A DNA stretch of 64,000 nucleotides from Leptolyngbya sp. NIES-3755 (GTDB taxonomy: Bacteria; Cyanobacteriota; Cyanobacteriia; Leptolyngbyales; Leptolyngbyaceae). Made by a program: the position numbers and the translations under genes. The stretch is taken from the NCBI GenBank assembly GCA_001548435.1, contig AP017308.1, forward strand, positions 1,621,030-1,685,029, read 5' to 3'. The notes beneath the pieces are model-generated. The model was not told the DNA's origin, made no database searches, and worked only from the letters and a program-made list of their open reading frames with translations. Below are positions 12,155-56,282 of this stretch, piece after piece; positions within the stretch are counted from its first letter, which is position 1; every line of letters begins with the position of its first letter.

Positions 12155-12937
12155 TTAGTTCTGAGTCGATTCGTTGAGTTGTTGTTGAAGTTGTTGGACT
12201 TCTTCGATCGATAAACCTGTTCCTTGTGCAATTGCTTCGATCGAGAACCCATTTCTTAAGAAATTAATAGCGATTTCTCGCTGAGTGTTTGTTCTGGTTA
12301 AGGTCGCTGTCTCTTCCTGAATCGAACGATAAACAGAGGATTCTTGCATGATGTCTCTCCGCAATACACGATAGATGATCTCATTATCCAATCTTAGCCC
12401 AGCAAGAATCGCTGAAGCTGCTGTCAGGTTTGCTTGAACTGCGCGATCGGAGATTTGATCGATCGCCCGCGCTGCCTGTCGCAATGTTGCTTCTGGATTA
12501 TCCGTTTGACCTAAAGCAGCAAAGGGAATCAGTCCTGGATATTGCAGAAACAAATCATCGGGCTGCTCCCATAACCGAATTACCTCGAAATTATGCTGAG
12601 TGTTCTCTAAAACAAAGCTGGTTTGTCGCACTAGATCAGAGTTCGTCTGCTTCAGATAGATCACGACTTGGTGCATCCTTTTAGTGCGATCGCGCCTGTA
12701 TCCTCGTCCACGGTAGTCGAACATCCGAAACGGAATATCTGGGTCAGGGCGAGTCTGAAACTCTAAATGCAAGATGGTTTGATCAGACTCTAACAAAATC
12801 AGAGCATCGGCTCGAATAGGGTCAAGCGAAAGTTCCGAAGGTTGAATTTCGGTCAGAGTAACAGGTTCTCCGAGAAGCCAACTGGCAAAGTCGATCGAGA
12901 AATGTTCGGCAAGAAAACGGCAGGTGTCATCATACAT
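12155..12937 (-). CDS. Rpn family recombination-promoting nuclease / PD-(D/E)XK transposase-like
   Basis: A 260-residue protein beginning MYDDTCRFLAEHFS, the characteristic start of cyanobacterial Rpn/PDDEXK_2 proteins. Residues about 39-61 contain the nuclease core: ADALILLES with the catalytic Asp, then ILHLEFQTR with the E-x-Q variant of the motif. The C-terminus is a helical region (IAINFLRNGFSIEAIAQGTG) ending in a Gln-rich coiled coil LSIEEVQQLQQQL. I choose the ATG at 12937; a TTG 30 bases upstream is less likely. Rpn proteins are DNA endonucleases that promote RecA-independent exchange and often multiply in genomes. Its neighbours are TA remnants, which fits an accessory island. Confidence 0.8.
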   Translation of the reverse strand: MYDDTCRFLAEHFSIDFASWLLGEPVTLTEIQPSELSLDPIRADALILLESDQTILHLEFQTRPDPDIPFRMFDYRGRGYRRDRTKRMHQVVIYLKQTNSDLVRQTSFVLENTQHNFEVIRLWEQPDDLFLQYPGLIPFAALGQTDNPEATLRQAARAIDQISDRAVQANLTAASAILAGLRLDNEIIYRVLRRDIMQESSVYRSIQEETATLTRTNTQREIAINFLRNGFSIEAIAQGTGLSIEEVQQLQQQLNESTQN

Positions 12938-13006
12938 GAGAACAATTGTACGATTTATTGCCGTCAAATGATTAATTTGTCCGAACGCGATCGTAACTCT
13001 CGATCT

Positions 13007-13504
13007 TCAAGGACATTCCAAAGATTCGCGAGTGCTGATGCCTGTTTTGGAATTCACACCACTGGCTCTTTTACAGAGTTCGACTACTTGCGATCGATCT
13101 AATACGGCAAAGCTAAAATCTGCCCCTGTAATGTTGGCATCTTTGAAGACTGAGCCGATCATCATGGCGGAAGTTAACACTGCATCGCTTAAATCTGCAC
13201 CAGATAAATCTGTGATGTAAGCAATACCATCACCGAAATCGGCTCCTTTCCAGTTCGATTTGCTTAGATCAGAGCCACTGAAGACTGCACCTCGTAAATC
13301 CGCACCACTGAAATTACTGCCAGAGAGACGAGCATTGCTGAATTCTGCACGAATTAGATTTTGTCCAGAATAGTCTTTTGTCGTTGTCTTGAAATCATCG
13401 ATCGCTCGAATTGCACCTGAACTTGCCGCATTTGCAGGCTGAGGGAGCGCCATCATTAGAACGGCTGCTAGAAGAAATCCGAAAAGTACTCGCCAGGTTC
13501 GCAT
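13007..13504 (-). CDS. Secreted pentapeptide repeat protein
   Basis: A 165-residue protein with a signal peptide: [20 protein letters not shown] with a likely cleavage after PANA (about residue 26). The mature part contains pentapeptide A(D/N)LXX repeats, for example [20 protein letters not shown] and [16 protein letters not shown] (about residues 61-133), which fold as a right-handed quadrilateral beta-helix. The C-terminus carries two cysteines, in VVELCKRAS and ESLECP, likely a disulfide. The start is the ATG at 13504; a GTG 15 bases earlier is possible. Thylakoid-lumen or periplasmic pentapeptide proteins are common in cyanobacteria, and the precise role is unknown. Confidence 0.85.
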
Positions 13505-13562
13505 ACGATCGCTTAACACTAAATTGCGTTACATTTCGTAATTCTACCAAGCATTGGTGCTT

Positions 13563-14117
13563 TTAAGTTCCGGGTTTCTTAGGTGCGATCGCAATACTCA
13601 ATTGGTAGTCTGAGGCTTGATCAGTTGCGATTACGTTGACTTGATAGGTTCCTGTTTCTGGAAGCGTTCCATTCCAACTCGATAAACCACTTTGGTAACG
13701 CTGGATTGGACTTCCACTTGGAGCAACTAAAGTGAGTAATACGCTTTGATTTGGGGATGTAATCGTGACGGTTGCAGTTTGATTGGCGGTGGCATCGAAG
13801 CTGTATTGGGCAGTTGCTTTGCTGGCTAAATTGCCTGAAACAGTGGTGGATGTTTTGCCAGGGTCGAGTTCGATTTTTTTACGATCGTCCGTTGTTTGGG
13901 GTGCGAGTGGTTGAGTCGTTTGAGGTGCAAGGGGTTGAGTTGTTTGAGGAGATTCCGCAGGCTGAGTTGGAGTTGCAACGGTTGGAGGGGGTGGCAATGG
14001 AGAAGGACTCGGTGTGGTTTCGGTTGGACTTGGAGCAACGGCTTGAGGGGGAGTAGATTGTCCGCAGCTTGTTAGGACTGCAACTGAACAAAGAATGAAA
14101 AGGGTAGTTCTGAGCAT
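13563..14117 (-). CDS. Lipoprotein with Pro/Thr-rich linker and PPC-like beta domain
   Basis: A 184-residue predicted lipoprotein with a perfect lipobox, LTSC at residues 15-18. A low-complexity Pro/Ser/Thr/Gln-rich segment follows (about 19-80), including a tandem QTTQPLAP repeat. The C-terminal 100 residues resemble a bacterial pre-peptidase C-terminal (PPC) beta-sandwich: ATAQYSFDATANQTATVTI, then VAPSGSPIQRY, then LPETGTYQVNVIA and a final YQLSIAI. PPC domains are secreted accessory or binding domains. It lies 26 bases downstream of the MprF-like gene on the same strand and could be its co-transcribed partner. Function unknown. Confidence 0.8.
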   Translation of the reverse strand: MLRTTLFILCSVAVLTSCGQSTPPQAVAPSPTETTPSPSPLPPPPTVATPTQPAESPQTTQPLAPQTTQPLAPQTTDDRKKIELDPGKTSTTVSGNLASKATAQYSFDATANQTATVTITSPNQSVLLTLVAPSGSPIQRYQSGLSSWNGTLPETGTYQVNVIATDQASDYQLSIAIAPKKPGT

Positions 14118-14143
14118 TGATATTATTTCGATCGAGAAAACAA

Positions 14144-15877
14144 TTAGCTGTCAGGTCTGAGATAGTCGAGCAAGCGATCGCCTGAATCGGCTCGAACTAA
14201 TCCCACCGCAATTTCTGGTAAGACGGTGAAGCTTGGAAAGATTAAATATCGCGGTTCCCAACGGGGGCGGAACTTCTCTTTGAATTGATGTAACCCTTTG
14301 AAGTTGTAAAACTGGTTAAGATGCTCGAAGAAGTAATGTAATCCTTTTTCAACTCTAAGTGAATCTGGTGCTTCCCCGACTCCCGCTAAGGGTGATAAAG
14401 AGAAATTAAAACTGTCGTATCCAGCTTGCTGAAAGTGTTGGATCATGGTTGCGAAGAGGAAATCCATTGTTCCTTTTTCTGCATCGTTGAGGTGACGCAT
14501 CAGATCAACTGTGACTTCTTTGCGGTTGTAGCCAGAGAGGAGATTTGAGAAGGCGATGATTTTGCCGTTGGCATTGTAGACGACTGCGATATGGCAGCCG
14601 CTGAGATAATCTCGATCGAACCATCCGATCGAGAATTGTTTTTCTGATCCCTGCTTGGATTTTAGCCATTCATCGCTGACCGGCTTCAATTGATTAAGTA
14701 GTCCATCGTCGATCGGAGGTTCGTAGACTTGTAAGTGATAGCCTGCTTTTGTCAGTTTATTGATTGCAGTTCTAAAGTCTTGATTCGCTTTGCCTTTTAA
14801 GCTAAATGTGTGGAGATCAATAATGGCTTCTTCTCCAATTTGTGCCCAACGATAACCGATTGATTGATACAGCGGTAAGTTCTCCGGTAGGACTTCGTAG
14901 AATGCAGGAAACCAATCATTTTGATTGCAGAATTGTTGGAAAGACACGATCGCTTCTTTGAGGTCATCTGGATGTCCGATCGGATCACCTAATGCGATCG
15001 CGGCTCGACTTTTGGCAACATAGGCAACCACACTTTTGCCGGATGGACTGAAGAAGTACGACTTATCTGGAAGCAAAGACAATCGAGCGAGTGAAGTTTT
15101 GCCGTATTGGTCAATGATTTGGCGTGCTCTTTGTCGATCGCTTAAGGTTGCTGGATCTCGCAGCAATACTGGACGCAATAGCATGAAGAGCGCATACGTC
15201 AGAGTGATTGTACCGACCGCATAGATAGAGTTGGCAAAGAATTCGGCATAACGTCTTCTAGGTTCAAGTCCCGCGTTATCTGCGGTGAAGAACATTGCCA
15301 AAGTTTGTAACACTGATTCAGTAAAGCTGAAGTTTATGGGCTGCCCGTTGATATTAAAGTAGCCATCGAGAATGTAAAAGCCGATCGTGCCATACGCTAG
15401 GGTAAAAAAGATCGCTGCAATTAACACTCGAATGCCTTGGGCGATCGACGGTCGATCGGATTGTGCAGTGTAGGCTTTGCGTAATACAAATAATTGAATT
15501 AGTAGAACAGAGGCAAGAACACTTTCTTCAATGTCAAAGCCTTTGATTAAGTGACTTAGAATTGAAACAATTAACAATCCAACAGTGAGATACCAAGCAA
15601 CTCGTTTTCGACGTAAAAGATTCGCTGCGAGAGTTAGTAAGATAAATCCTGCTAAAGCAGCGAATAAGTGACCACCCACTCGCACTGAAAATGGGAAGAA
15701 ATGTTTTAACCAGGCAGTGCGTTCTGGATAACTCGGAGCAACCGCAGACCAGAGATTCACCAATCCCATGATCCCCGTTAAGATTGCGGTTAACCAGATC
15801 CCGATTCGAGTTTTACGATCGAGCATTTCGGGTCGTTTCCGATTCCAGCCGAATTTGGGAGAAGTTACCTTGTGCAT
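14144..15877 (-). CDS. MprF-like phosphatidylglycerol lysyltransferase domain protein (DUF2156)
   Basis: A 577-residue membrane enzyme. The N-terminal third has about six hydrophobic segments (residues about 25-240), and residues about 250-570 form the GNAT-like aminoacyl-lipid transferase domain. Motifs typical of the family are FSPSGKSVVAYVAKSRAAIA (about 273-292), ALGDPIG, WQIGEE-like WAQIGEEAIIDL, and the C-terminal FNFSLSPLAGVG and FKEKFRPRWEPRYL. MprF enzymes transfer an amino acid from tRNA to phosphatidylglycerol and so modify the surface charge of the membrane. The N-terminal flippase half of full MprF is shortened here. The substrate amino acid is not known. The ATG at 15877 follows AAGG. 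It lies 5 bases after an anchored esterase gene, which suggests coupled function. Confidence 0.87.
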   Translation of the reverse strand: MHKVTSPKFGWNRKRPEMLDRKTRIGIWLTAILTGIMGLVNLWSAVAPSYPERTAWLKHFFPFSVRVGGHLFAALAGFILLTLAANLLRRKRVAWYLTVGLLIVSILSHLIKGFDIEESVLASVLLIQLFVLRKAYTAQSDRPSIAQGIRVLIAAIFFTLAYGTIGFYILDGYFNINGQPINFSFTESVLQTLAMFFTADNAGLEPRRRYAEFFANSIYAVGTITLTYALFMLLRPVLLRDPATLSDRQRARQIIDQYGKTSLARLSLLPDKSYFFSPSGKSVVAYVAKSRAAIALGDPIGHPDDLKEAIVSFQQFCNQNDWFPAFYEVLPENLPLYQSIGYRWAQIGEEAIIDLHTFSLKGKANQDFRTAINKLTKAGYHLQVYEPPIDDGLLNQLKPVSDEWLKSKQGSEKQFSIGWFDRDYLSGCHIAVVYNANGKIIAFSNLLSGYNRKEVTVDLMRHLNDAEKGTMDFLFATMIQHFQQAGYDSFNFSLSPLAGVGEAPDSLRVEKGLHYFFEHLNQFYNFKGLHQFKEKFRPRWEPRYLIFPSFTVLPEIAVGLVRADSGDRLLDYLRPDS

Positions 15878-15882
15878 GAGCC

Positions 15883-16836
15883 TTAAAAGTGGCGATGTTT
15901 TTTCTGAGTTTGGGCGTGGTGAAATTGGCGACCTACAAAAGTCAGCGAATCAGCAAGGTGCGTTCTCCAATAGTTCCAACCCACATTTTGTCCGACAATT
16001 CCATGACCACCCGGAAATACATAGAATTCGTTATAGATTCCTAAGCTGCTCAATACTTTGTGGAAATCACGGGTGGCATCAAGGTATTTTTCGTCGGCTT
16101 CTCCAGCATCTAAATAAACTCGGATGCGTTTGCGCTCTTGAGGTGGGATTTGCGCGACAAAGAGTTGAGGACTGTTCTCAGGTCCGCTGTTATCGATGAA
16201 ATATCCGGTGTGACTAAAGAAAATGTTGAAGCGTTCTAAATGTCTTAATCCAATGTTGAACGCGCCCCAGCCACCCGAAGATAAACCACCCATTGCCCAG
16301 TAGTGAGAATCCTCGATCGTGCGAAATTGGCGCTTTACTTCTTTGACTAAATCCGAGCCGATGTAGGTTGAAACTTTGCCATTCTCGCCATCGAAATAGT
16401 CAGAATCCCAAAAAGGACTGGTTCCACGGTTGTCGTTGCCATCGGGTGTGATGATCAGGGCGGGTGGCAGTTTTTTCTCGTTATAGAGTCGTTTTAAGGT
16501 GGGGGTGATTGCGGCTTTTTCGTAGTAATCGCGTTCGTCTCCATGTCCACCATGTAGGAGGAAAATGACGGGGTAGCGTCGATTCGGATGCTTCTCATAT
16601 CCGGGGGGCAGAATTACGCCATATCGTCGCTGTTCATTCATGGCTTCGCTGTAGAAGCTTTTTACTTGAAAGTTCAGTCCTGCGACTTCTTCGACCGGCG
16701 GGGCATCGAGTTGGGGAGCACCGAGAACAAAAACATACCAATACGTCCCTGCCGCGATCGCACTCAGAACGATCGTGATCAAGGCTAAAACGGGCTTTCG
16801 ACGGAGTTTAAGTTTGGGTTTGGAGGTGAGTGGCAT
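15883..16836 (-). CDS. Membrane-anchored alpha/beta-hydrolase esterase (esterase D/Fes type)
   Basis: A 317-residue protein with one N-terminal membrane anchor (PVLALITIVLSAIAAGTYW, residues about 16-34) and an extracytoplasmic hydrolase domain. The oxyanion segment LLHGGHGDE lies near residue 93, the nucleophile motif GLSSGG near 185-190, an acidic LDAGEADEKY near 243, and the catalytic-His region FPGGHGI near 274. The family includes esterase D, antigen-85-like and enterochelin esterase-like enzymes. The gene is directly upstream of the MprF-like gene. In Pseudomonas and enterococci a comparable exported esterase beside an aminoacyl-PG synthase removes the amino acid again, so this enzyme may be an aminoacyl-lipid hydrolase. 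That role is inference. Confidence 0.85.
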   Translation of the reverse strand: MPLTSKPKLKLRRKPVLALITIVLSAIAAGTYWYVFVLGAPQLDAPPVEEVAGLNFQVKSFYSEAMNEQRRYGVILPPGYEKHPNRRYPVIFLLHGGHGDERDYYEKAAITPTLKRLYNEKKLPPALIITPDGNDNRGTSPFWDSDYFDGENGKVSTYIGSDLVKEVKRQFRTIEDSHYWAMGGLSSGGWGAFNIGLRHLERFNIFFSHTGYFIDNSGPENSPQLFVAQIPPQERKRIRVYLDAGEADEKYLDATRDFHKVLSSLGIYNEFYVFPGGHGIVGQNVGWNYWRTHLADSLTFVGRQFHHAQTQKKHRHF

Positions 16837-42987: not shown

Positions 42988-44763
42988 TTAATCAATTTTT
43001 TTGACAGTGCAGCGATCGCGTCCCTCTAATTTCGATTGATATAAAGCTTTGTCCGCCCGCTCCACCAAACAATGAATCGTTCCATCAAGTAGCTGAAACG
43101 TCGCTCTCTCTGTCACGACACTTGCAATCCCGCAGCTTACCGTGACCCGATCGCTCACTTTAGAACTTTCATGCGGCAGATTCAACTCTCTCAATTGTTC
43201 CAGAATCCGATTCGCAACTCGTTCTGCTATGTCGATCGAGGTTTCCGGCAAAATAATCGCGAATTCCTCACCCCCGTACCGAGCCACCAAATCCGACCGC
43301 CGCACACCCCGCTTCAAAGTCTGCGCTACCTGTATCAAACACTGGTCTCCTGCTTGATGCCCATACGTATCATTGTACAGCTTAAAAAAATCCACATCAC
43401 AGAGCAGTAGTGAAACCTCGCCCCGTTGCTGAATCAACTTAATTAACTGTTGCTCAAAATATCTACGGTTTGCAACCTGAGTCAATTCATCAATGAACGC
43501 TAAACGATGTAAATCTTGCTCATGAAACAGTAAGCAAACTCCAGTCGAAATCGCGAGACCCAAAATCGCAGGAAACACAGGAACCCACCAACCGAGCAGA
43601 AACAATCCGTAGCTCGTACAAATGGCTCCAACACTCAGCCCGGTAATGCCGATCGCAGCTTGCCCATAAAAGAATGATTTCTCTGTCCAATTGCCTTGCA
43701 GCACCCGCCGACTTAGTAAAATCCCGCTTAACGACCAAGCCACTGCCCAAAGAATCTCGATCGGTTCCGGCAGCACTTGAATTAACTTACGTCCATCCAG
43801 CGCGGCTCCCAACATCTGACTAATTGCATTGGCATGAACAAACACACCCGGTGTTCTAGAGAACTGATCCGTTTGACTACTATCGTAAGGAGTTAGCAGA
43901 AAATCATTCGTACTTTCTGCGGTTGAACCGATTAGAACAATACGATCACGAACCAGTTCCGCCGATATCGAGCCATCCAAGAACGCCCGGAGTGGAATCG
44001 TTGTGAAGACTTCTTCATCTCCTCGAAAGTTCAGCAGCGTTTGATACCCATTATCATCAGCACGAGTGTACCCGCCATCATTACTATGAAATGCTGTAAA
44101 GGTTGCACGTCCTAAACGATAGAGTCCTTTGCGCTCTGGAACGGGTTCTAATTGAATTCCTTGAGCTTCAAGGTACATCAGCGATAAGCGCGTTCCCAAG
44201 CTCAAATACGTTTTGCCCTGATTTGATCGAGCAGAGATTAAATCCCGTCGCACTCGTCCGTCCGCATCCTCAACTCGATCGACGATCGCAACCTGATTCT
44301 TTTCAGCTAACGTCTTAGGTGGTGGAACTTGACGACTCCCAAATCGTTTCTCGACCCCAATCAAATTCGGAGTGGTCCGAAACACGTCCTGAAGTTCAGC
44401 GTTTCCGGGTTCAACAGGCAAATCTCGATACAAATCCAGTCCGATCGCTCTCGGTTTTTCTGCTCGTAGCTTCTTCAAAATCCGAGCTAAAGTACGATCG
44501 GGAAGTGGCCATGCTCCAATCTGACTGATATCAGTATCATCAATGGTAATAATAACAATGCGTGGATCAGTCGATTCAGCAGGACGGACTCGAAAAAATA
44601 GATCGAGAACTGCCCACTCTGGAACCTGGAACACTCCCGTAAAACTAACCGCGATCGTCGCCACAGCAGCACTAATTCCGGTCGCGATTACTTTCGTTTC
44701 GGAGTTCCACAGTCGCCTTAGCAATCGCTGACGAATGATCGAACTGGATAAATTAAAGGGCAT
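42988..44763 (-). CDS. CHASE2-GGDEF diguanylate cyclase
   Basis: A 591-residue membrane sensor-cyclase. An N-terminal transmembrane helix (ATGISAAVATIAVSFTGVF, about 27-45) precedes an extracytoplasmic CHASE2 domain (about 50-320) with IVIITIDDTDISQIGAWPLP and VLIGSTAESTNDFLLTPYD. Three further helices (about 335-410) lead to a GGDEF domain (about 425-590). The catalytic motif is RYGGEEFAIILPE, so it should synthesise cyclic di-GMP, and an RxxD inhibitory site (RRSD) lies five residues before it. CHASE2 senses an unknown periplasmic signal. It sits next to DUF928, exoprotein and CHAT genes. Confidence 0.94.
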   Translation of the reverse strand: MPFNLSSSIIRQRLLRRLWNSETKVIATGISAAVATIAVSFTGVFQVPEWAVLDLFFRVRPAESTDPRIVIITIDDTDISQIGAWPLPDRTLARILKKLRAEKPRAIGLDLYRDLPVEPGNAELQDVFRTTPNLIGVEKRFGSRQVPPPKTLAEKNQVAIVDRVEDADGRVRRDLISARSNQGKTYLSLGTRLSLMYLEAQGIQLEPVPERKGLYRLGRATFTAFHSNDGGYTRADDNGYQTLLNFRGDEEVFTTIPLRAFLDGSISAELVRDRIVLIGSTAESTNDFLLTPYDSSQTDQFSRTPGVFVHANAISQMLGAALDGRKLIQVLPEPIEILWAVAWSLSGILLSRRVLQGNWTEKSFFYGQAAIGITGLSVGAICTSYGLFLLGWWVPVFPAILGLAISTGVCLLFHEQDLHRLAFIDELTQVANRRYFEQQLIKLIQQRGEVSLLLCDVDFFKLYNDTYGHQAGDQCLIQVAQTLKRGVRRSDLVARYGGEEFAIILPETSIDIAERVANRILEQLRELNLPHESSKVSDRVTVSCGIASVVTERATFQLLDGTIHCLVERADKALYQSKLEGRDRCTVKKID

Positions 44764-44828
44764 AAGAAGACTTGCATCGGCTGAACTGAAAGGAGAGTAT
44801 CCTTAGCCTAAACATGCCCATTTCCCGA

Positions 44829-45557
44829 TTAGTTCACGAGCGTTGCAGATGTGATCTTCGTCAATCCTGCGGCATCTAGAATCTGTTTCCAAGTCTCTCT
44901 GATTGCTGGATCTTGCGGTTTTTGCTGTTTCAAATCTGCGATCGTCGAAATCATGTCATACCAAATTCCACTGGCTCCATACGTTGCAGCTTGCTCGATC
45001 GTGGATTGTTTTTTCAAATTGGCATTAATGCGATTGGCAAGCTGAATTCGCTGAATCCAACCACTCGCGAACGGACTATCCGGGCGCAATCTACCGCCAC
45101 ACATCAAGACAATTCCCCACTCATAAGACTGATTCATCGCTAAAGGCGCGATCGTTTTTGGTAATGTCAGCCGCAAAATTCCACCCTGTGAGGGGACTGA
45201 GAGCAACTGCCGATAGTGAATCTGCCCTTTCGCGTTCTTAATGCTAAAGAATGCAGCTTGAGCAGAACTTGGCGGAACATACATTAAAAACGTTGGATGC
45301 TCTAATGTGGTTAATCCATAGTTCGAGTTCGCAGGCGTAACTAAAACAATTTGTGGCGTATCACGACTCGTTGAAGTCGCACAGGCAATATCCCCACGAG
45401 AAGCTCCCCCTTTTGTTTCAGCAGGTGCGCCACCCGATGGAGGTTCAAACCTGACTGAGGGGAGTGCCTGACTCCGCGATCCGACAAGGCTGGATGAAAT
45501 CACAGCGATCGCTATCGATCGAGCAACCCAACGCCGTACCAAATTCAGTTTCATCAT
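44829..45557 (-). CDS. DUF928 secreted protein
   Basis: A 242-residue exported protein with an N-terminal signal peptide (ARSIAIAVISSSLVGSRSQA, cleavage near residue 31). The mature part has the DUF928 pattern: VRFEPPSGGAPAETKGGASRG, IVLVTPANSNYGLTTLEHPTFL, and YVPPSSAQAAFFSIKNAKGQ. A helical C-terminal third ends KQILDAAGLTKITSATLV. DUF928 proteins are restricted largely to cyanobacteria and are regularly found beside CHASE2 kinases or cyclases, CHAT proteins and two-partner-secretion proteins. Function unknown. It is co-directional with, and 65 bases upstream of, the CHASE2 cyclase gene. Confidence 0.9.
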   Translation of the reverse strand: MMKLNLVRRWVARSIAIAVISSSLVGSRSQALPSVRFEPPSGGAPAETKGGASRGDIACATSTSRDTPQIVLVTPANSNYGLTTLEHPTFLMYVPPSSAQAAFFSIKNAKGQIHYRQLLSVPSQGGILRLTLPKTIAPLAMNQSYEWGIVLMCGGRLRPDSPFASGWIQRIQLANRINANLKKQSTIEQAATYGASGIWYDMISTIADLKQQKPQDPAIRETWKQILDAAGLTKITSATLVN

Positions 45558-45909
45558 TTCTTAAATGCGAGTAGAGGAGCGCATGTTTAAACATTCCCTG
45601 CGCTTGTGTTTGAATTCACAGATTTTGATTGAATTCAGGATAGAAACGGACAGAATTTCTGAACTTTTACAATTAGATTAGCTGTATGAAACTATGACAA
45701 ATTTATCGAGTATCATTTTTTTTAATTTTACATAGGAATCTTGCAACACAGCACTTCTAGCGATCTACTGTAAGTGCAAAACTGCATTTCCTTAAATACC
45801 GATCCGTATTCACACGAATCATATTTTCTCATTTGACGTGATTTGATCGCAAATAGAAATCTGTCACTTCGATGACTGCTTTTTATTCCCCGATCGAGCT
45901 TCACGACTC
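45558..45909. promoter_or_regulatory. Divergent intergenic region between DUF928 and metalloprotease
   Basis: This 352-base A+T-rich region lies between the minus-strand DUF928 gene and the plus-strand protease gene, so it must carry two divergent promoters. I see a TGAATTCA palindrome near 45610 and a near-inverted ATACCGATCCGTAT at about 45797-45810, but no assignable promoter elements and no ORF. Confidence 0.4.
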
Positions 45910-47451
45910 ATGGTTAACTTCAACTTCTCTTACGCTCCCGGCACAACCCTTCAGCAAATGATCGGGTTTGAAATGGCAGGTCGAGTTTGGTCTTCTTATC
46001 TCTCTGACCCTGTGACGATTAACATTCACGTTGGAGTTTCTAGCAGCTTACCTGGAAATGCGATCGGGGGTGCGTTGCCTGGAATTGAGTCAGCACAAAA
46101 CTATCGATCAGTGGTTCGTGGCTTGGAAGATGATGTCACTTCTTTGGATGATCAGACTGCTCTGCCGAACTTACAAGACAAGTCAGATTATGAAGCCTGG
46201 TTCGATGAATTTGACCGTAAGAAGGGTAATAACAAGGGCGAAAAGGTCAAAACCAAATCGATTAATATCACTCGTGCGAATGCTAAAGCGTTAGATCTCG
46301 TCTCTGCACCGAATGAATTGGATGGTGTGATTTTGTTTGGTGGACTGCAAGGGTCGAACTTTCGCTGGAGTTATGACTTCACTCGCAGTAGTCCTACAAC
46401 CGCCAACACGCTGGATTTTCTCAGCACTGCCATGCACGAAATTGCTCATATTTTGGGCTTTGTCAGTGGCGTAGATAAACCTGGCTGGTTGAATAGCTTG
46501 GCAGTCGATAAAGACGGGAGTGAACAGTACAAAAAAAGCTTAAGTCAGCGTGTCAGTTATACCACCCCGCTAGATCTGTTTCGGTACTCTACAACCGCAG
46601 GCGAGGGAGTGAATGACCTCTCTTATGGGTCTGTGGGTGGAGAGAAATTTTTCTCGATCGATGGTGGTGAAACTGCGATCGCTCACTTCTCGACGGGTTC
46701 CGATCGGACATTAGGTGGGGATGGTTTCCAAGCAAGTCACTGGAAAAATGGGGCAACTCGAACTGGGATTATGGCTCCTGCATTGAGTCCTGAAGAGCGT
46801 TCTACGATTTCGATCACGGATTTGAGAGCATTTGATGTGATCGGTTGGGATCTCAGACCTGGTGCTTATGGATTGAATCTGAACTTATCGGCATTGCAAT
46901 CTCAGGCTGAAGTAGCTTTGGCACAACGGCTTAGGGTCAGTGTATCGTGGTTGTCTCAGAATACAACGGCTGCGGAACAGTTGTTAGTGAGCGATCGCGC
47001 AAATGATATCGATCGGATGATTCAGCGAAGCCAGATTTATCCTTGGGGAACGCGATCGGGCGGAGGCACGACTCCTTGGCGGCAAGTTCTGGACTTACTA
47101 GAACAGCAAGTTGTTTACAGCAATTTTGAAACGTTGGATGAAGAGTTTCAACTCTTTTCCGAAACGCAATCCACTGTGCAAATGCCAGTATTTGTTGAAT
47201 TTCCTGCTGCAATTCCTCCTCAGTTTCAGCCTGTTCAGTTCTCGCTTGATCTGAGTTTGATGGCATCTAAAGTCAGTGAAATTCCTCAAACTGCTAGTAT
47301 TGCGATCGCTGATTTTCGGAACTGGTTTGACTACTTAGAGAAAAGCATCCGTAGATCACCCCAGAGTTCACGAAACACTCCAAAGCAAAATGGACAGCGA
47401 TCGCGCAAATTTACCGATTCTCAGGAAATTGTCCACTGGACAGATCTCTAG
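45910..47451 (+). CDS. NF038122-type metalloprotease (HExxH)
   Basis: A 513-residue protein beginning MVNFNFSYAPGTTLQQMIGF, the conserved start of the cyanobacterial NF038122 metalloprotease family. The zinc site is AMHEIAHILGFVSGVD (about residues 176-191, HExxH with a following Gly), and other landmarks are INIHVGVSSSLPGNAIGG and LRAFDVIGWDLRP (about 304-316). No classical signal peptide is visible, which is usual for the family when export is by another route, and no PEP-CTERM anchor is seen at the C-terminus. The C-terminal 130 residues are helical and polar. It is 43 bases upstream of the TPS exoprotein gene and likely co-transcribed. The substrate is unknown. Confidence 0.88.
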   Translation: MVNFNFSYAPGTTLQQMIGFEMAGRVWSSYLSDPVTINIHVGVSSSLPGNAIGGALPGIESAQNYRSVVRGLEDDVTSLDDQTALPNLQDKSDYEAWFDEFDRKKGNNKGEKVKTKSINITRANAKALDLVSAPNELDGVILFGGLQGSNFRWSYDFTRSSPTTANTLDFLSTAMHEIAHILGFVSGVDKPGWLNSLAVDKDGSEQYKKSLSQRVSYTTPLDLFRYSTTAGEGVNDLSYGSVGGEKFFSIDGGETAIAHFSTGSDRTLGGDGFQASHWKNGATRTGIMAPALSPEERSTISITDLRAFDVIGWDLRPGAYGLNLNLSALQSQAEVALAQRLRVSVSWLSQNTTAAEQLLVSDRANDIDRMIQRSQIYPWGTRSGGGTTPWRQVLDLLEQQVVYSNFETLDEEFQLFSETQSTVQMPVFVEFPAAIPPQFQPVQFSLDLSLMASKVSEIPQTASIAIADFRNWFDYLEKSIRRSPQSSRNTPKQNGQRSRKFTDSQEIVHWTDL

Positions 47452-47493
47452 GTGAATCTTTCGCCTCTAACGCGGGCATCTTGAGGGAAAAAT

Positions 47494-50265
47494 ATGTCTT
47501 GCAGAGATCGTTTTGTTCTTTGCAAGACATTAGTGTTTCTAGATGCAAGTGATTTTATGTCTGTGATTGGAGTTGTGCGATCGCACGTTGCAAGTCGAGT
47601 GATTCTGGGGATGATTCTTTCTCTATCAATCCCGATCGCACAAGCTCAAGTCACTCCTGATAATAGTGTCGGTACGATCGTTAATATTACGGGCAATACT
47701 GCGGATATTACAGGCGGAACACAACAAGGTACAAATCTTTTCCACAGTTTTAGTGAATTTTCACTCACTTCTTCAACAGTGAATACAGCGCGATTTGATA
47801 ATAGTACGGGAATCGCAAATATCATTATGCGGGTTACAGGTGGATCGATTTCTCGGATTGATGGATGGATTCAAGCGAATGGAAACGCAAATCTGATCTT
47901 TCTCAATCCAAATGGAATTATTTTTGGTGAGCAAGCCGCTTTGAATATTGGTGGCTCGTTCCTTGCGAGTACTGCCGATCGACTAAAGTTTGGAGATGGA
48001 ACCGAACTTGATACCCGATCAACAACACCACCCTTGCTAACGATTAGCCAACCGATTGGATTGCAGTATGGCGCAACTCCAGCCCCAATTCGAGTAGAAG
48101 GATCGGGGCATTTTATTTTTGTCGAGCCTGATCCATTCGAGATTGTGAGAGCATTTCGTCCAGTTGGATTGGGCGTGGGAACTGAGAAAACACTGGCGCT
48201 GATTGGTGGGCGTGTGGAATTACAGGGCGGGAATCTTACAGCCGAACAGGGACAGATTGAAATTGGTGCGATCGCGAATTCGACCGTGAGTTTAACTTCA
48301 ACAACTTCAGGTTGGAACTTCACTTATCCAACGAATGCCACCTTTCAAGATGTGGTGTTTGCTCAAGGATCGTCTGCGGATGCGAGTGGAAATAGCGGCG
48401 GACGGGTGCGAGTTCAGGCGCGAAACGTGAAAATTTTGGATGGTTCTTCTTTACTAGCGTTGACCTTGGGAGACGGAACAGGGGGACTCGTTCAAGTGAC
48501 TGCTTCGGAGTCGGTTACGCTTCGGGGTGAATTTGTGTTTAATGATTTTCCGCTGTTGCCGAGTAGTTTGCTAACCGAAGTAAATTTGGGAGCGACAGGA
48601 CAGGGAGGAGATATTGCTGTAAAAACGGGGCGATTTTTTGCAACAGAAGGCGCAAAGATTTCGAGTAGTACCGCAGGAGAAGGGAATGGTGGGCAAATCT
48701 CGATCGGGGCAAATACGATCGAGCTTCAAGGCGATTCTCCAAACTTTGGTTCGACCACGATTTCTGCGGCTTCAACAGGGGGCAAAACAGGCGGAAATGG
48801 AGGACTTGTAAAGCTGACTGCTGATACGATTCGATTTGTAGACAGTGGAGCAATTATCTCGAATACAAATGGTGGAGGAAATGCGGGGAGTGTTGAGATT
48901 ACCGCAAGAACACTCGACTTTGTCAGTGGATCTGAGTTTGGAGCGAGCGGAATCTTCGTCGAAACCTTTCCGGGCAGTACGGGACGAGGAGGAAATGTCT
49001 CGATCGTAGCAGAGCAATTTCAACTAACAGACGGCGCTTTATTGGTATCTAGTACGCTTGGAAGCGGTGATGCTGGTGCACTCAATTTGAAGGTGAATCG
49101 ACTCTCGATCTCAGAGGGAGCACAAATTGTCACATCAACTTCTGGATCAGGAAACGCTGACAGCATCACGATCACAGCACAAACGATCGGGTTACAAGGA
49201 GCAGATGGACAGCTCCCTACGGGAATTTTTGCATCCGTGAATCCAAGTGGTACTGGACAAGGAGGACGATTAACGATCGACACTCAACGGCTCAGTGTTC
49301 TGAACGGGGCGCAGATTGCAGTTGATACCTTTGGAAGCGGCAATGCTAGAGGATTGAGTATTACTGCACGAGAAATTGAGCTTGCAGGATCAGCCTCTCA
49401 AGGTCGGAGTGGAATTTTTGCAGGTGCGATCGCCGATACGGGTGCAGGTGGAAATATTTTCGTAAACAGCGATCGCTTAATAATCCGGGATGGAGCGACG
49501 ATTAGCGCGAGTAATTTTTCCAGTTGGGGTCAGATTCCTTCTGGACAAGGGGCGGCTGGAAACATTGACATTCGGGCTAATACGATTCGGTTGAACAATG
49601 GCAGTATTAATGCTTCGACGGTCGCGGGCGGTAGAGGCAACATTGAACTGCGATCGAACATTCTCACTCTATTGAATCAAAGCTTAATTTCCACGAATTC
49701 ACAAGGAACGGAACCGGGTGGAAACATTGTTCTGAACACTGATTTTCTAGTGGGATTCCGTAACAGTGACATCACTGCCAATGCCGTCAATGCTAGAGGT
49801 GGAAAAGTGACAGTCAATGCTCAGAGTCTTTTTGGAATTGGGGAACGCGATCGTTTAACTCTTGAGAGTGACATTACTGCAAGCTCTGAACTCGGAATTG
49901 AATTTAATGGTGTCGTGCAAATTAATACGCCTGATATTGATCCGACTCGTGGCTTAGTGAAGTTGCCTGAAAGTGTGAGTAGTGCAGAGCGAATTGCGGC
50001 AAGCTGTGAACAATCCAAGGACAATGCGTTTGTTGTCACAGGTCGGGGAGGATTGCCTGAAGATGCGGCTCAATCTCTGAGAGGTGGAACCGTTTGGGAA
50101 GACTTGAGAACTCCGACAGCAGGAAATATTGAACGACCTACGATCGCTCAAACTTCAGGAATTCCAGAAGCGCAGAGTTGGGTTGTTCGCTCAGATGGTC
50201 AAGTTGAACTGGTCGCAGCGCAACCGATCCAAGCTCAGTTTGTAAATTGTGCAGTGCAACGCTAA
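47494..50265 (+). CDS. Two-partner-secretion exoprotein (filamentous hemagglutinin N-terminal domain)
   Basis: A 923-residue secreted beta-helix protein. An extended N-terminus leads to a hydrophobic signal (ASRVILGMILSLSIPIAQA, about residues 33-51). The TPS domain follows (about 52-300) with VGTIVNITGNTADITGG, FHSFSEFSL, ANGNANLIFLNPNGIIFGE (NPNG motif) and FLASTADRLKFGDG. The remainder is a long right-handed beta-helix of Gly/Ser/Thr-rich repeats (GNGGQISIGA, GNAGSVEITA, GSGDAGALNL type), ending near 850 with two cysteines in the C-terminal 80 residues. A GAGGG ribosome-binding site precedes the ATG at 47494; an internal ATG at 47557 is possible. The TpsB partner is not in the window. Confidence 0.92.
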   Translation: MSCRDRFVLCKTLVFLDASDFMSVIGVVRSHVASRVILGMILSLSIPIAQAQVTPDNSVGTIVNITGNTADITGGTQQGTNLFHSFSEFSLTSSTVNTARFDNSTGIANIIMRVTGGSISRIDGWIQANGNANLIFLNPNGIIFGEQAALNIGGSFLASTADRLKFGDGTELDTRSTTPPLLTISQPIGLQYGATPAPIRVEGSGHFIFVEPDPFEIVRAFRPVGLGVGTEKTLALIGGRVELQGGNLTAEQGQIEIGAIANSTVSLTSTTSGWNFTYPTNATFQDVVFAQGSSADASGNSGGRVRVQARNVKILDGSSLLALTLGDGTGGLVQVTASESVTLRGEFVFNDFPLLPSSLLTEVNLGATGQGGDIAVKTGRFFATEGAKISSSTAGEGNGGQISIGANTIELQGDSPNFGSTTISAASTGGKTGGNGGLVKLTADTIRFVDSGAIISNTNGGGNAGSVEITARTLDFVSGSEFGASGIFVETFPGSTGRGGNVSIVAEQFQLTDGALLVSSTLGSGDAGALNLKVNRLSISEGAQIVTSTSGSGNADSITITAQTIGLQGADGQLPTGIFASVNPSGTGQGGRLTIDTQRLSVLNGAQIAVDTFGSGNARGLSITAREIELAGSASQGRSGIFAGAIADTGAGGNIFVNSDRLIIRDGATISASNFSSWGQIPSGQGAAGNIDIRANTIRLNNGSINASTVAGGRGNIELRSNILTLLNQSLISTNSQGTEPGGNIVLNTDFLVGFRNSDITANAVNARGGKVTVNAQSLFGIGERDRLTLESDITASSELGIEFNGVVQINTPDIDPTRGLVKLPESVSSAERIAASCEQSKDNAFVVTGRGGLPEDAAQSLRGGTVWEDLRTPTAGNIERPTIAQTSGIPEAQSWVVRSDGQVELVAAQPIQAQFVNCAVQR

Positions 50266-50277
50266 AAGGAGAGCCTA

Positions 50278-52764
50278 ATGACACGATTGAAATCTTGGCT
50301 AAAATCACTAGCTGTAAAGCTTTGTTTGTTCATTCTAACTTGTAGTTTGATTGTGGTTTTTCAACCGCTAATTGCTACAGCATCAGCACGATCGCAAGGG
50401 ATTCAACTCTATGAAGCGGGGCGATTTCAAGACGCGATCGCAGTTTGGCAGCAAGCCGCTCGAACGTATGAAGCACAAAACGATCGGGTCAATCAAGCTT
50501 TGAGTTTGAACTATCTTGCATTAGCGCTACAAGAGTTAGGAGAGTTGAAACAAGCAAGCCAAATCATTTCTGAGAGCCTAGAATTAACCAACAATTTATC
50601 AGTTCGAGCACGAGTTTTAAACACTCAAGGAAAGCTGTTTTTAGCATTAGGACAACCCGAAAAAGCGATCGCTTCTTGGCAAGCAGCGGAAGTTGCTTAT
50701 CGACAAAATGGCGATGAACTTGGCGCGATCGGGACTCAGATTAATCAAGCTCAAGCGCTTCAAAATCAGGGATTGATTCGCCGATCGCAGTTTATTTTAA
50801 AATCTGTGACTCAAAAATTACAGACTCTACCTGCATCAAGCTTGAAACTCGCAGCAGTGCGAAATCTGGGAATTGTCCAGCAAGTTATGGGACAGTTAGA
50901 AGAAGCGAAAACAACCTTAGAGGAAAGTGTTTCGATCGCAAAACAGTTAAACGATCGGGAGGAAATTAGTGTTTCATTGTTTAACCTTGCCAATGTCGTC
51001 CGATCGATGGGTCAATTTGAAGCTGCATTAGAACAATACGATGAAGCCTCAAAACTAGCAAAGCTTCCTCAAACCCGCTTAGGAATTCAAGTCAATCAAT
51101 TTAGCACATTCGTTAAACTAGAGAACTGGAAAGGTGCAAAAGAAGTATTTAACCAATCAAAACTAGAATTACAGAAACTATCACCGAGTAGACAAACGAT
51201 TTATGCAAGAGTGAATTTGTCGAATCATGCAATGAAGAACCTACAGCAGTTTTCTAATCGGGAAATTGCAGAAGAGTTAGCGATCGCGATTCGAGATGCC
51301 CAAACGATTCAGGATTTAAGAGGCGAATCTTATGCAACTGGACAATTAGGACAACTGTATGAACAATCTAAGCAGCTTCAAGAAGCGCAGGAATTAACCG
51401 AGCAAGCTTTATCTCTGTCTTATCGAATTGATGCCAGTGATATCGCGTATCGGTGGCAGTGGCAACTTGGGCGATTGTATCGACAACAGGGAAATCGAGA
51501 AAACGCGATCGCAGCTTATCAAGAATCGGTTCGATTGCTCAAATCACTCAGAGCCGATTTGGTCGCAACTAGCCCAGATGTACAATTTTCATTCCGCGAA
51601 TTGGTAGAACCTGTCTATCGAGAATTTGTTAGCTTACTCGTTGATCAACCGAATCAGAAAGATTTACAGACTGCACGAGAAACGATCGAAGCTTTGCAAC
51701 TTGCAGAATTAGAAAACTTTTTACGATCGGCTTGTTTGGAAGCAAAAACAGCACAGATTGATCAAATCGATACGAATGCAGCCGTGATTTATCCGATCAT
51801 TTTGCCCGATCGCTTAACAGTGATTGCTTCGTTACCAGGTCAAGCACTTTCGGTACACAATACGCAATTGCCAAAAGATCAGGTTGAAAAAACACTAGAG
51901 AAAATGCTAGAAACACTGAATCCAATTGCTTCTGATGAAGAGCGATTACACGTTTCTAAACAGATTTATCAATGGCTGATTCAACCGATCGCAAAAGAGT
52001 TAGAACAAAATCAGATCAAAACTTTGACATTTGTTCTAGACGGAACATTGAGAAATATTCCAATCGCAGCGTTACACGATGGAGAACAATATTTGATTGA
52101 GAAATATAGCGTTGCGATTACACCTGGACTTCAGTTAGTAGAACCCAAATCGCTCACTCAATCTGAACGGCTCAAAGCTCTAGTAGGCGGATTGACCGAA
52201 GAGCGACAAGGCTTTACTTCACTGCCGGGAGTTGCTAGAGAAGCGACTCAAATTGCCAGCAAATTGAACACTCAAATTTTTCTCGATCGCAGATTCACGA
52301 AGCAAAATCTACAAGAAAGCATCGAAGAATCTCAATTTCCTTTAGTGCACTTAGCCACACACGGACAATTTAGCTCGAAACTGAGTGATACCTTTCTGCT
52401 GATGTGGGACGATCGATTGACGATCGAAGGATTACGCAACCTGTTGAAATCACGATCGGATAGAACGCCGATCGAACTTTTAGTCCTTAGTGCATGTGAC
52501 ACCGCAGAAGGCGATCAACGCGCAACCTTGGGACTCGCAGGTTTGGCAGTGCGATCGGGAGCGCGGAGTACCCTAGCAACTCTGTGGGCAGTCAACGATA
52601 ATTCAACTGCGGACTTGATGACGGAATTTTATCGATCGTTATCAGAACAACATATAAGTAAAGCGGAATCGCTCAGACAAGCTCAATTAAAGCTGTTGAA
52701 AGATCCGAGGTATCAGCATCCGTACTATTGGTCTCCATTTATCTTGATCGGGAATTGGTTGTAA
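50278..52764 (+). CDS. TPR-CHAT domain protein, secreted
   Basis: An 828-residue protein with an N-terminal signal sequence (LCLFILTCSLIVVFQPLIATA, about 16-36), about eight tetratricopeptide repeats (residues about 45-440, for example SLNYLALALQELGELKQA and YATGQLGQLYEQSKQLQEA), and a C-terminal CHAT caspase-like protease domain (about 530-825). The catalytic dyad motifs are LVHLATHGQF and LLVLSACDTAEGD, both intact, followed by GARSTLATLWAVND. CHAT proteases are activated in several bacterial conflict and secretion systems. It starts 12 bases after the exoprotein gene, so the two form a unit, and a role in processing or export of the exoprotein is a reasonable guess. Confidence 0.93.
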   Translation: MTRLKSWLKSLAVKLCLFILTCSLIVVFQPLIATASARSQGIQLYEAGRFQDAIAVWQQAARTYEAQNDRVNQALSLNYLALALQELGELKQASQIISESLELTNNLSVRARVLNTQGKLFLALGQPEKAIASWQAAEVAYRQNGDELGAIGTQINQAQALQNQGLIRRSQFILKSVTQKLQTLPASSLKLAAVRNLGIVQQVMGQLEEAKTTLEESVSIAKQLNDREEISVSLFNLANVVRSMGQFEAALEQYDEASKLAKLPQTRLGIQVNQFSTFVKLENWKGAKEVFNQSKLELQKLSPSRQTIYARVNLSNHAMKNLQQFSNREIAEELAIAIRDAQTIQDLRGESYATGQLGQLYEQSKQLQEAQELTEQALSLSYRIDASDIAYRWQWQLGRLYRQQGNRENAIAAYQESVRLLKSLRADLVATSPDVQFSFRELVEPVYREFVSLLVDQPNQKDLQTARETIEALQLAELENFLRSACLEAKTAQIDQIDTNAAVIYPIILPDRLTVIASLPGQALSVHNTQLPKDQVEKTLEKMLETLNPIASDEERLHVSKQIYQWLIQPIAKELEQNQIKTLTFVLDGTLRNIPIAALHDGEQYLIEKYSVAITPGLQLVEPKSLTQSERLKALVGGLTEERQGFTSLPGVAREATQIASKLNTQIFLDRRFTKQNLQESIEESQFPLVHLATHGQFSSKLSDTFLLMWDDRLTIEGLRNLLKSRSDRTPIELLVLSACDTAEGDQRATLGLAGLAVRSGARSTLATLWAVNDNSTADLMTEFYRSLSEQHISKAESLRQAQLKLLKDPRYQHPYYWSPFILIGNWL

Positions 52765-52910
52765 AAAATTGCCCTTAGCCTTGTTTGAATCGGTCTTAGG
52801 ACGGATACGAATTTTTGTCGCACCATAGAGGATGTATTGCGTCCGATACATTGGCTTGATAGTCTTTAGCATGTCGAGCTAATCTGGACGGACTATAGGC
52901 TAGAGTGACG

Positions 52911-55900
52911 ATGATTAGCGAACCTTCCCCCGACTTATCCGCCCGCATCTTTTCCGGAGATAGCCAACTGGCTCAGTTAATGCGATCGCACAACTGGGCA
53001 GACACATCGCTTGGAGCAATTGAACAGTGGTCGCCGAGTCTCTGTACGGCGGTGAGCATTTGCTTGAATTCTCGATTTCCGATGGTGATTTGGTGGGGAC
53101 GGGAGTTAGTGTTGCTGTATAACGATGCTTGGTTACCGATCGTAGGGGGTAAGCATCCAGATTCGCTCGGTCGTCCGGGACATCAAGTGTGGGCAGAAAC
53201 GTGGGATGTAATCGGAACGCAGTTGAATGGCGTTTTAGAGACCGGGAAGGCAACATGGTCAGATGATTCGTTACTGCAACTATATCGATATGGTTATTTA
53301 GAGGAAACTTACTTTACTTATTCGTATAGCCCGATATTTCTAGAGTGCGGGAAAGTGGGCGGTGCATTTACAGCCGTGACAGAAACCACCGATCGCGTCA
53401 TTGGAGAGCGGCGATTAGCGACTTTAAGAGATTTAGCTGCACAGACTGGAGCCGCAAAAACGATCGAGCAAGCCTGTCAGATCTCGATCGACAAATTAGC
53501 GAACAATCTCGCTGATATTCCTTTTGCTGCAATCTATATCGTCAGTGAAACAGTGACATTAAAAGCAACCACTGAAACAGAATTACCACTGAATTCGCAC
53601 TCGATTTGGAAGCTTGAAGAAGCAATTGAAAAACGTCAGCCGATTCTGATCGAGAACTTAGCAGAACAGTTCGGAGATATTCCAGCAGGGGTACTTAGGA
53701 CACCGCTACAACAAGCATTAGTGTTACCAATTTGGGCATCAGGACAGGAAGCACTCAGTGGATTGTTAGTAGTTGGCGTAAATCCAGGGCGGGAATTGGA
53801 TGAGGATTATCGCGACTTTTTCGAGATGGCAGCGGGACATATTGGAACTGCGATCGCGAATGCGGATGCGTATGAAGCAGAACGGAAACGAGTGGAAGCT
53901 TTGGCAGAACTCGATCGAGCTAAAACTGAGTTTTTCAGCAATGTTTCACATGAGTTCCGAACGCCATTAACTCTGATGCTGAATCCGCTCGAAGAAGTGT
54001 TAGCGGTTGAGCCAGTAGAACATCGAGAACAGCTAGAAACGGCGCATCGAAATGGATTAAGGTTACTTAAATTAGTCAATACACTGCTTGATTTTTCGCG
54101 AATTGAAGCAGGACGAGTTCAAGCAATCTATCAACCGATCGAATTATCGACATTTACCGCAGAATTAGCCAGTGTGTTTCGGACCACGATCGAGCGTGTT
54201 GGATTACGGCTGATTGTCAATTGTGAAGGGAGCGAACAAGCGTATGTCGATCGAGAAATGTGGGAGAAGATTGTTCTGAATCTAATCTCGAATGCGTTCA
54301 AATTTACGTTTGAAGGTGAAATCGAGGTAAGTTTGCGGCGCGTTGAACACTCGATCGAGTTGAATGTTCGTGATACAGGTGTCGGAATTCCATCTGAAGC
54401 TTTACCGCGATTGTTTGAGCGCTTTCATCGGGTGAGTGGAACTCGATCGAGAAGTTACGAAGGTTCAGGAATCGGGTTAGCACTCGTAAAAGAACTGGTG
54501 ACGCAACATGGTGGAACAATCTCTGTTTGGAGTGAAGTCAACCAAGGATCAACATTCACTGTAAAAATTCCATTAGGAGACGCGCATTTACCCCCTGAAC
54601 AAGTCGATCGAGATGGCATTGTTCGAGAAACTACGGTTCGTGCAGATGCGTTTGTTCAAGAAGCATTACGATGGAACACAGAAATTGCAGATGATTTGAT
54701 TGTTGCCGACTCTGAGCGTTCAAGTACTCGAATCTTAGTCGTTGATGATAATGCAGATTTAAGAGACTATCTGAAACGGTTGTTATCGAAATCTTATAGA
54801 GTCGAAACCGCGATCGATGGTATTGATGCGCTGAACATGATTCGCCAATCTGCGCCCGATCTGATTCTCAGTGATGTGATGATGCCGAATTTGGATGGAT
54901 TTGGACTCTTGCAAGAACTGCGATCGCATCCTGAGACCAAAGAAATTCCAATCATTCTACTGTCTGCTCGTGCGGGTGAAGAAGCGCGAGTGGAAGGATT
55001 AGGAGCGGGAGCGGATGATTATTTAGTCAAACCTTTTTCTGCTCGTGAACTGATGGCGCGAGTTGAATCGACTTTGAAGCTATCACAGTTACGTCAAGAA
55101 ACCACCGATCGAGAGCGAATGTTGCGATCGCAAGCCGAACGTGCGAACCGTCTCAAAGATGAATTTCTCGCGGTGCTGTCTCATGAACTGCGAACGCCGC
55201 TGAATCCAATCATGGGTTGGATAAAACTCTTACGCTCTGGAAAATGTAGCCCCGCACAAACTGAGAAAGCGCTTGAAACGATCGAGCGTAATGCGATACT
55301 TCAAACTCAATTGATTGGCGATCTGCTCGATGTTTCGCGGATTTTGCAAGGTAAGCTGAATCTGGCACAAGAACCTATCAATCTGAGCGAGATTATTTCA
55401 GCCGCGATCGAAACCGTTCAACTCGCTGCCGATGCAAAATCTCTGAACATCCAAACCAAAATTCACCCTGCCAATCCGGTGATCGGGGATGCAGGACGAC
55501 TCCAGCAAATTGTTTGGAATCTGCTCTCGAATGCAGTGAAGTTTACGCCTGCAAATGGTTCGATTACGGTGTCATTAACTCAGATCGATGGCTTTGCTCA
55601 TCTCCAAGTCAGCGATACGGGGAAAGGCATTCAACCCAGTTTCCTGCCTTATGTGTTCGACTATTTTCGCCAAGAAGATGGCTCATCGACGCGCACCTTT
55701 GGCGGATTGGGATTAGGTTTAGCGATCGTGCGCTATCTCACCGAGTTACATGGCGGCATCGTGACAGCTTACAGTGCAGGTGAAAACCAAGGCGCAACTT
55801 TCACAGTGAAATTACCTGTCGTGAATCGATCGATTGAGCCTTCAGAACCTTTACCCAATGCGATCGAGCAATCGCTCCAAGGTTTTACGATTCTGGTTGT

Positions 55901-56282
55901 CGATGACGATCGCGACTCGAATGACTTAGCTGCGTTTGTATTGCAATCAGCGGGAGCCTCAGTAATGACAGCCTCTTCTGGCATCGAAGCGTTGCAAAAA
56001 TTGAACACACAAATCGATCTACTCGTGAGCGATATCGGAATGCCTGAGTTAGACGGATATGAATTGTTGCAACAAGTTCGTGCCCAATCGATTTTTATTC
56101 CTGCGATCGCACTCACCGCTTATGCAGGCGGTTCAGATCAACAGCGGGCGATCAAAGCGGGATTCCAAGCACATCTCGCCAAACCGATCGAGCCAGATCA
56201 ACTTTTATCGATCGCGGCTTCGTTGCTGAAAAAATCCGTCGAATCTGCACCACAATCGCTACAATCGATCATGCCGATTTAA
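52911..56282 (+). CDS. Double hybrid sensor histidine kinase (PAS-GAF-HK-REC-HK-REC)
   Basis: A 1123-residue cytoplasmic signalling protein without membrane helices. Order: PAS-like sensor (about 20-160), GAF (about 170-320), a first kinase core with H-box [13 protein letters not shown] (about 340) and HATPase ([26 protein letters not shown]), a receiver [17 protein letters not shown] (about 605-720) with phospho-Asp in [13 protein letters not shown], then a second kinase core with [12 protein letters not shown] (about 755) and HATPase ([26 protein letters not shown]), and a final receiver [15 protein letters not shown] with [13 protein letters not shown]. The tandem kinase-receiver layout allows an internal phosphorelay. 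No output regulator is adjacent. A GTG at 52905 is an alternative start. Confidence 0.95.

Follow-up and report, generated by a model that had tools for sequence, protein, structure and literature searches.

A recurrent cyanobacterial gene module of a two-partner secretion exoprotein, a TPR-CHAT protease, DUF928 and CHASE2 proteins, with a possible role in surface-protein release or maturation

In Pseudomonas aeruginosa, a cysteine hook at the C-terminus keeps the two-partner secretion (TPS) adhesin CdrA in its pore, CdrB (PMC7616799); the periplasmic protease LapG cuts CdrA from the surface (PMC4694147). In magnetotactic bacteria, the gene for MtxA, a periplasmic protein with an immunoglobulin (Ig)-like part and TPR repeats, is followed by a CHASE2-cyclase gene (PMC4439547). 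Here we compare these systems with a locus of the cyanobacterium Leptolyngbya sp. NIES-3755, in which genes for a TPS exoprotein and a TPR-CHAT caspase-like protease lie beside genes for a metalloprotease, a DUF928 protein and a CHASE2-GGDEF protein. The window, by which we mean the whole analyzed stretch of 64,000 nucleotides (G000:C1:1621030-1685029), belongs to a genome of 6.76 Mb in four contigs. The same architecture of TPR plus CHAT protease is found in Csx29 of Craspase. To our knowledge, few substrates of exported cyanobacterial CHAT proteins have been described.

The window carries a single copy of a module that recurs in cyanobacteria and is composed of a TPS exoprotein, TPR-CHAT, DUF928 and CHASE2. 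We drew 59 genomes from the phylum, 25 of them from the class, and the linkage counts use these 25; the expected numbers assume uniform gene placement. At least 66 of the 137 TPS genes had a CHAT gene within 10 kb (9.4 expected), at least 64 of the 104 DUF928 genes had a CHASE2 gene within this distance (3.5 expected), and 39 of the 104 had a TPS gene (3.3 expected); the observed counts for CHAT and CHASE2 genes are lower bounds, as they were made among the matches listed. Directly adjacent TPS-CHAT pairs were always on the same strand (23/23), at most 100 bp apart in 19 of the 23, and adjacent DUF928-CHASE2 pairs shared a strand in 30 of 34 cases. The clean order TPS-CHAT-DUF928-CHASE2 occurred at five loci (L068, L079, L128, L167 and L173). 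DUF928 was confined to 18 of the 25 genomes, and TPS, CHAT and CHASE2 genes were present in all 18. These families have large copy numbers (for CHAT, up to 38 per genome among the matches listed), which is the sole point in favor of a chance neighborhood of unrelated genes; we give that explanation next to no credence, as the roughly 5- to 22-fold excess of the module pairs already refutes it. Thus, the sequence-only reading, a first account of this DNA that had proposed to check the co-occurrence of DUF928, CHAT and TPS genes and would have been undone by random, non-recurring neighborhoods, holds on both points.

The host genome itself contains 14 TPS, 14 CHAT, 7 DUF928 and 5 TpsB genes, and seven further places in it repeat the whole or part of the set. 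These comprise TPS-CHAT-DUF928 (L043); CHASE2-GGDEF divergent from a 1632-residue TPS-CHAT fusion, followed by DUF928 (L044); CHAT-DUF928-CHASE2 kinase with no TPS gene (L042); a TPS gene broken by an insertion and then CHAT-DUF928-CHASE2 kinase (L048); TpsB facing TPS-CHAT (L045); TPS-TpsB with CHAT a few kb away (L049); and DUF928, two TPS genes and one CHAT gene spread across about 20 kb (L046/L047). At L048 (about 11143-16471; G000:C1:1167142-1172470), the insertion that appears to have broken the TPS gene holds a transposase-like frame, and the neighboring CHAT, DUF928 and CHASE2 kinase genes are still in place. At another CHAT gene of the host genome, a trypsin-like protease gene directly precedes it (L058, 5310-9711; G000:C1:3059309-3063710). 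Two Nostoc plasmids also carry the module (L187, NZ_CP151101.1; L185, NZ_CP040276.1), and one of them was typed as conjugative. That of Nostoc sp. UHCC 0302 (NZ_CP151101.1) has the order CHASE2-DUF928-TPS (annotated 'S-layer family protein')-TpsB-CHAT-TPS, pore included. On both plasmids DUF1822 adjoins CHASE2, and on one a sigma-70 factor does so as well. Outside the cyanobacteria, a gammaproteobacterial contig of an uncultured Methylococcus metagenome-assembled genome (L177) has consecutive genes for CHAT, CHASE2 and an exported protein, which suggests that the set reaches beyond the phylum. A profile comparison of this exported protein with DUF928 detected no similarity and gave no support for sequence kinship between the two.

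Table 1. Genes of the module copy in the window and the exoprotein tail (positions counted from the first letter of the window).
Feature	Position	Strand	Evidence and remarks
CHASE2-GGDEF sensor/diguanylate cyclase, 591 aa	42988..44763	-	Pfam CHASE2 8.4e-64, GGDEF 3e-47
DUF928 protein, 242 aa, predicted export leader	44829..45557	-	Pfam DUF928 1.9e-52
NF038122 (metallo_LGF) zinc metalloprotease	45910..47451	+	NCBIfam E 1.4e-77; accessory
TPS (TpsA) exoprotein, 923 aa, extended leader, beta-helix repeats, C-terminal tail	47494..50265	+	Pfam TPS (PF05860) 1.1e-58
Exoprotein C-terminal tail: Cys838 ... TGRGGLP (aa 848-854) ... W.DLR ... Cys919	49975..50262	+	Tail profile E 1.6e-25; conserved in 83 relatives
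TPR-CHAT caspase-like protease, 828 aa	50278..52764	+	Pfam CHAT (PF12770) 1.3e-69; His695/Cys740

The five genes are those that the sequence-only reading had named, at exactly the positions it gave, and Pfam, NCBIfam and motif inspection agree on them (Table 1); the exoprotein and TPR-CHAT genes are indeed 12 bp apart. The exoprotein has its TPS domain at residues 51-306, contains an NPNG motif of the NPxG type and also matches TIGR01901 (8.4e-21); the leader was read from the sequence, and GAGGG precedes the ATG of the gene.

This exoprotein ends in a tail that it shares with many relatives, with the consensus C-x(n)-F-x2-TG[R/K]GG[LIV]P-x2-P ... W-x-D-x-R ... [IV]VEAQGW ... G-x3-L ... C. The tail has exactly two cysteines in 74 of 83 tailed TPS proteins, and the body is free of cysteine in 68 of the 83; in the window protein, the two tail cysteines are the only ones after the leader. 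An arginine or lysine occupies the second position of GxGG in about 70 of the 83. A tail profile search of the 25 genomes found it in 17, with few exceptions within TPS frames, and these were 17 of the 18 genomes with DUF928 and none of the other seven, a comparison in which genome size is a confounder. When a TPS gene was directly followed by a CHAT gene, the tail was present in 22 of 23 cases. In addition, 32 single frames in 15 genomes hold both TPS and CHAT, with TPS always N-terminal, so that the proposed link between protease and exoprotein is real and recurrent. The tail and the fusion exclude each other: the tail was present in 86 of 109 unfused TPS proteins and in none of 31 CHAT-fused ones (Fisher p ~1e-16, a value that overstates independence, since a single change on the TPS tree divides tailed from fused forms and points to one ancient divergence). 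Many of the 23 unfused proteins without the tail seem to be truncated or broken, or to run off the end of a contig. The single change on the tree also rules out repeated, independent swaps of tail for fusion. Both the tail family and its mutual exclusion with CHAT fusion are new here, as are the predicted export leaders and intact His-Cys dyads of CHATs beside tailed TPS genes, the MtxA-like prediction for DUF928 and the variability of the CHASE2 outputs. A literature search, which left most subscription papers outside, found no paper pairing the CHAT domain with hemagglutinin or two-partner secretion, although novelty is thereby not proven.

A quick tree of the CHAT proteins placed 28 of 30 fused copies in a 33-member clade (support 100); a second clade, with 39 members (support 93), took in most of those that neighbor tailed TPS or DUF928 genes. 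Every CHAT of the set that could be read keeps both catalytic residues, His and Cys, whether it is fused or not. The residue after the catalytic Cys is Q, E or D in CHATs beside tailed TPS genes and mostly R (20/30) in TPS-fused CHATs, a difference that may mark different substrate preference. The window protein is laid out as a predicted export leader (about residues 1-40), TPR (about 40-420) and CHAT (559-826). Judged by simple hydropathy, the leader is strongly hydrophobic in 27 of the 29 CHATs that neighbor tailed TPS genes, which makes a cytoplasmic CHAT, the other finding that would have spoken against the sequence-only reading, unlikely.

We propose, with a probability of roughly 45%, that the exoprotein tail, an exported TPR-CHAT and CHASE2/DUF928 form a module for surface-protein release or maturation. 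The exoprotein would be exported by Sec and then through a TpsB pore, and its cysteine-bearing, probably flexible tail would stay at or below the pore and so keep it on the surface. Cleavage by periplasmic TPR-CHAT at the tail or close to it, perhaps just behind the basic residue of G[R/K]GG, would then free the exoprotein or mature it. The fused lineage would have the CHAT domain in place of the tail. In favor of the proposal stand the co-localization, gene order and fusions described above, the cysteine pair of the tail and its near confinement to TPS frames, the intact CHAT dyad and hydrophobic CHAT leader, three TPS-TpsB fusions with the tail placed ahead of the pore, and the likeness of the DUF928 model to MtxA. 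The conservation of a basic residue in G[R/K]GG would be in keeping with a protease of clan CD, and low AlphaFold2 confidence over most of the tail, which was predicted as mostly disordered next to high-confidence last beta-helix turns, fits a flexible segment. By analogy, CdrA may serve as a working precedent for both tail retention and periplasmic cutting.

Several observations weigh against this proposal. The export leaders are predictions from hydropathy only, and the exclusion of tail and fusion is one ancient event on the TPS tree. The two tail cysteines are about 80 residues apart, and their pairing is a candidate only; in the low-confidence AlphaFold2 tail model, no disulfide or folded disulfide structure was seen. 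Since the beta-helix body of the window protein contains a GRGG as well, as a turn at residue 496, the role of the motif may be structural, and the cut site is a guess. Finally, 50 of the 83 tailed TPS genes have no CHAT gene within three genes, which means that CHAT would have to act in trans or that the tail has another role. One such role would be that of a signal for TpsB docking or for stalling secretion, with no proteolysis involved and with TPR-CHAT as a periplasmic chaperone or quality-control factor whose TPR part holds the exoprotein. The many tails that are not beside a CHAT gene would agree with this, as would the long TPR array of the CHAT protein and three single frames of about 1450 residues in which the tail joins the TPS exoprotein to a TpsB barrel (L063, L085 and L164, in G002, G008 and G057). 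We nevertheless regard it as rather unlikely, given that the His-Cys dyad, needless for a pure chaperone, is intact in all readable CHATs.

A TpsB gene was not found within the window, as the sequence-only reading had noted when it left the choice between an unlinked TpsB and a different outer-membrane route. The genome search gave five TpsB genes, all outside the window (C1:1325665, 2396201, 5202961, 5387129 and 5497473), which bears out the former and rules out a different route as the consequence of the missing gene; one of these five unlinked pores would serve the window exoprotein. Since TpsB genes are few and TPS genes many in this genome, several exoproteins must share few pores. TPS and TpsB genes lie within 10 kb more often than expected (33 of 137 TPS genes versus 1.5), and 104 of the 137 have no TpsB gene within this distance; thus, a TPS gene without a nearby pore gene is normal here.

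The module could also be a conflict or defense system. Caspase-like proteases, CHAT among them, have roles in conflicts between bacteria, and the C-terminal CHAT of the fusions resembles effectors delivered by TPS. The exoprotein could then be a bait or a sensor of contact or attack, CHAT an executioner acting on an envelope target, and the fusions contact-dependent effectors as in contact-dependent inhibition (CDI). The presence of the entire set on a conjugative Nostoc plasmid would also suit a conflict or defense role. We consider such a role unlikely: the VENN/NxxLYN motif occurred in 0 of 140 TPS proteins, which rules out a CDI-type toxin, PADLOC gave weak matches only, the copies per genome are many, and an immunity-like gene was not recognized.

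The CHASE2 and DUF928 proteins would form a periplasmic pair that senses the envelope, with the output set by the variable cytoplasmic domain of CHASE2. Among 40 CHASE2 proteins in or near the loci, 12 had a CHAT-like N-terminal part, 11 a histidine kinase, four GGDEF, four an adenylate/guanylate cyclase, two a Ser/Thr kinase and one EAL. In the window the output would be cyclic di-GMP (c-di-GMP); RxxD and GGEEF are both intact by motif inspection. Given the variable outputs, c-di-GMP is not the common thread of the module and is ruled out as its general control; the cyclase, which to the sequence-only reading suggested surface-state control, is thus not the common element. The CHASE2 proteins with a weak CHAT-like N-terminal part, about 780 residues long and mostly beside DUF928, partly beside DUF1822 (three among those with neighbors scanned), represent a second CHAT-CHASE2 link (L075, L085, L094, L098, L106, L108, L112, L127, L129, L164, L171 and L172).

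Of 48 DUF928 members, 47 begin with a hydrophobic leader. Its AlphaFold2 model (pLDDT 83.4) consists of an Ig-like beta-sandwich and four helices, and the best Foldseek match in the PDB was the C-terminal domain of MtxA, at a modest level (E 9e-6, TM 0.40/0.52). A profile search of PDB sequences with DUF928 returned neither MtxA nor any other match. The shared CHASE2 neighbor is independent evidence for the likeness, beside the modest structural match, and DUF928 is predicted to be a periplasmic Ig-plus-helical protein nearest to MtxA. In the literature, DUF928 was met in a single paper on an unrelated subject, most subscription papers lying outside the search. As DUF928-CHASE2 is the tightest pair, some sets (L042) lack a TPS gene, and CHASE2 often carries the CHAT-like part, at times beside DUF1822, the module could be an envelope stress relay of CHASE2/DUF928 and CHAT in which TPS genes are regulated neighbors and not substrates. 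This is very unlikely in our view, because the TPS-CHAT fusions and the close same-strand spacing point to a direct link.

How the module would relate to the described systems can now be stated. Like CdrA-CdrB with LapG and LapD, it has a TPS protein with C-terminal cysteines and, in the roles proposed here, a periplasmic protease and an inner-membrane sensor. The protease differs, however, being CHAT (the Pfam scan gave CHAT and TPR families and no LapG family), and the window sensor, unlike LapD, is a CHASE2 protein that lacks EAL and keeps a GGEEF of the active type, the CHASE2 outputs varying across loci. The tail also differs from that of CdrA in its motif and in its widely spaced cysteines, the pore gene is usually unlinked, and a LapG di-alanine site ([TPA]AAG) was found in only 2 of 86 tail regions. 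With no LapG, no LapD and no di-alanine site, the module does not belong to the LapG/LapD systems, although it would work alike. It shares with the MtxA-CHASE2 adenylate cyclase pair an exported Ig-like and helical protein adjoining a CHASE2 gene (PMC4439547), while DUF928 has no detected sequence similarity to MtxA. With type Vb systems such as FHA, HMW and ShlA, it has in common the TPS domain, the NPxG motif, the beta-helix body and TpsB genes in the genome, but it adds a dedicated, presumably exported CHAT, the conserved cysteine tail and the DUF928/CHASE2 partner. As to clan CD, the CHAT peptidase domain and its catalytic His and Cys are present, and the protein is a putative protease. 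In contrast to Csx29, which is cytoplasmic and gRAMP-bound, the window CHAT has a predicted export leader and TPS/DUF928/CHASE2 neighbors; no gRAMP/Cas7-11 gene was among the scanned window neighbors.

The metalloprotease is an occasional accessory. It retains HEIAHxxGF (HEIAH at residue 176), and a PDB sequence search with it gave no match. It scored above the cut-off in 4 of 25 genomes and precedes a tailed TPS gene at just two loci, the window and L132 of G037, where the divergent layout with the metalloprotease before TPS recurs once; it is thus ruled out as a core component. A large hybrid histidine kinase gene (52905-56282, plus strand), 140 bp 3' of the CHAT gene on the same strand, is a possible extra member. 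Promoter and terminator scans gave matches no better than those in shuffled sequence.

We tentatively suggest, short of even odds, that through these genes cyanobacteria have a new class of regulated release of surface proteins, which would combine a dedicated cysteine/GRGG tail with periplasmic TPR-CHAT and with sensing by CHASE2 and the MtxA-like DUF928, and which would include a second lineage that has the protease built into the exoprotein. For one exported CHAT lineage, we propose a substrate family, a candidate recognition tail and a set of operon partners, and DUF928 gains a predicted fold and a partner in CHASE2. If our proposal is true, the module points to a previously undescribed on-demand release or maturation of surface proteins, in which periplasmic caspase-like proteolysis would decide which TPS proteins stay on the surface, the job that the unrelated LapG does in Pseudomonas.

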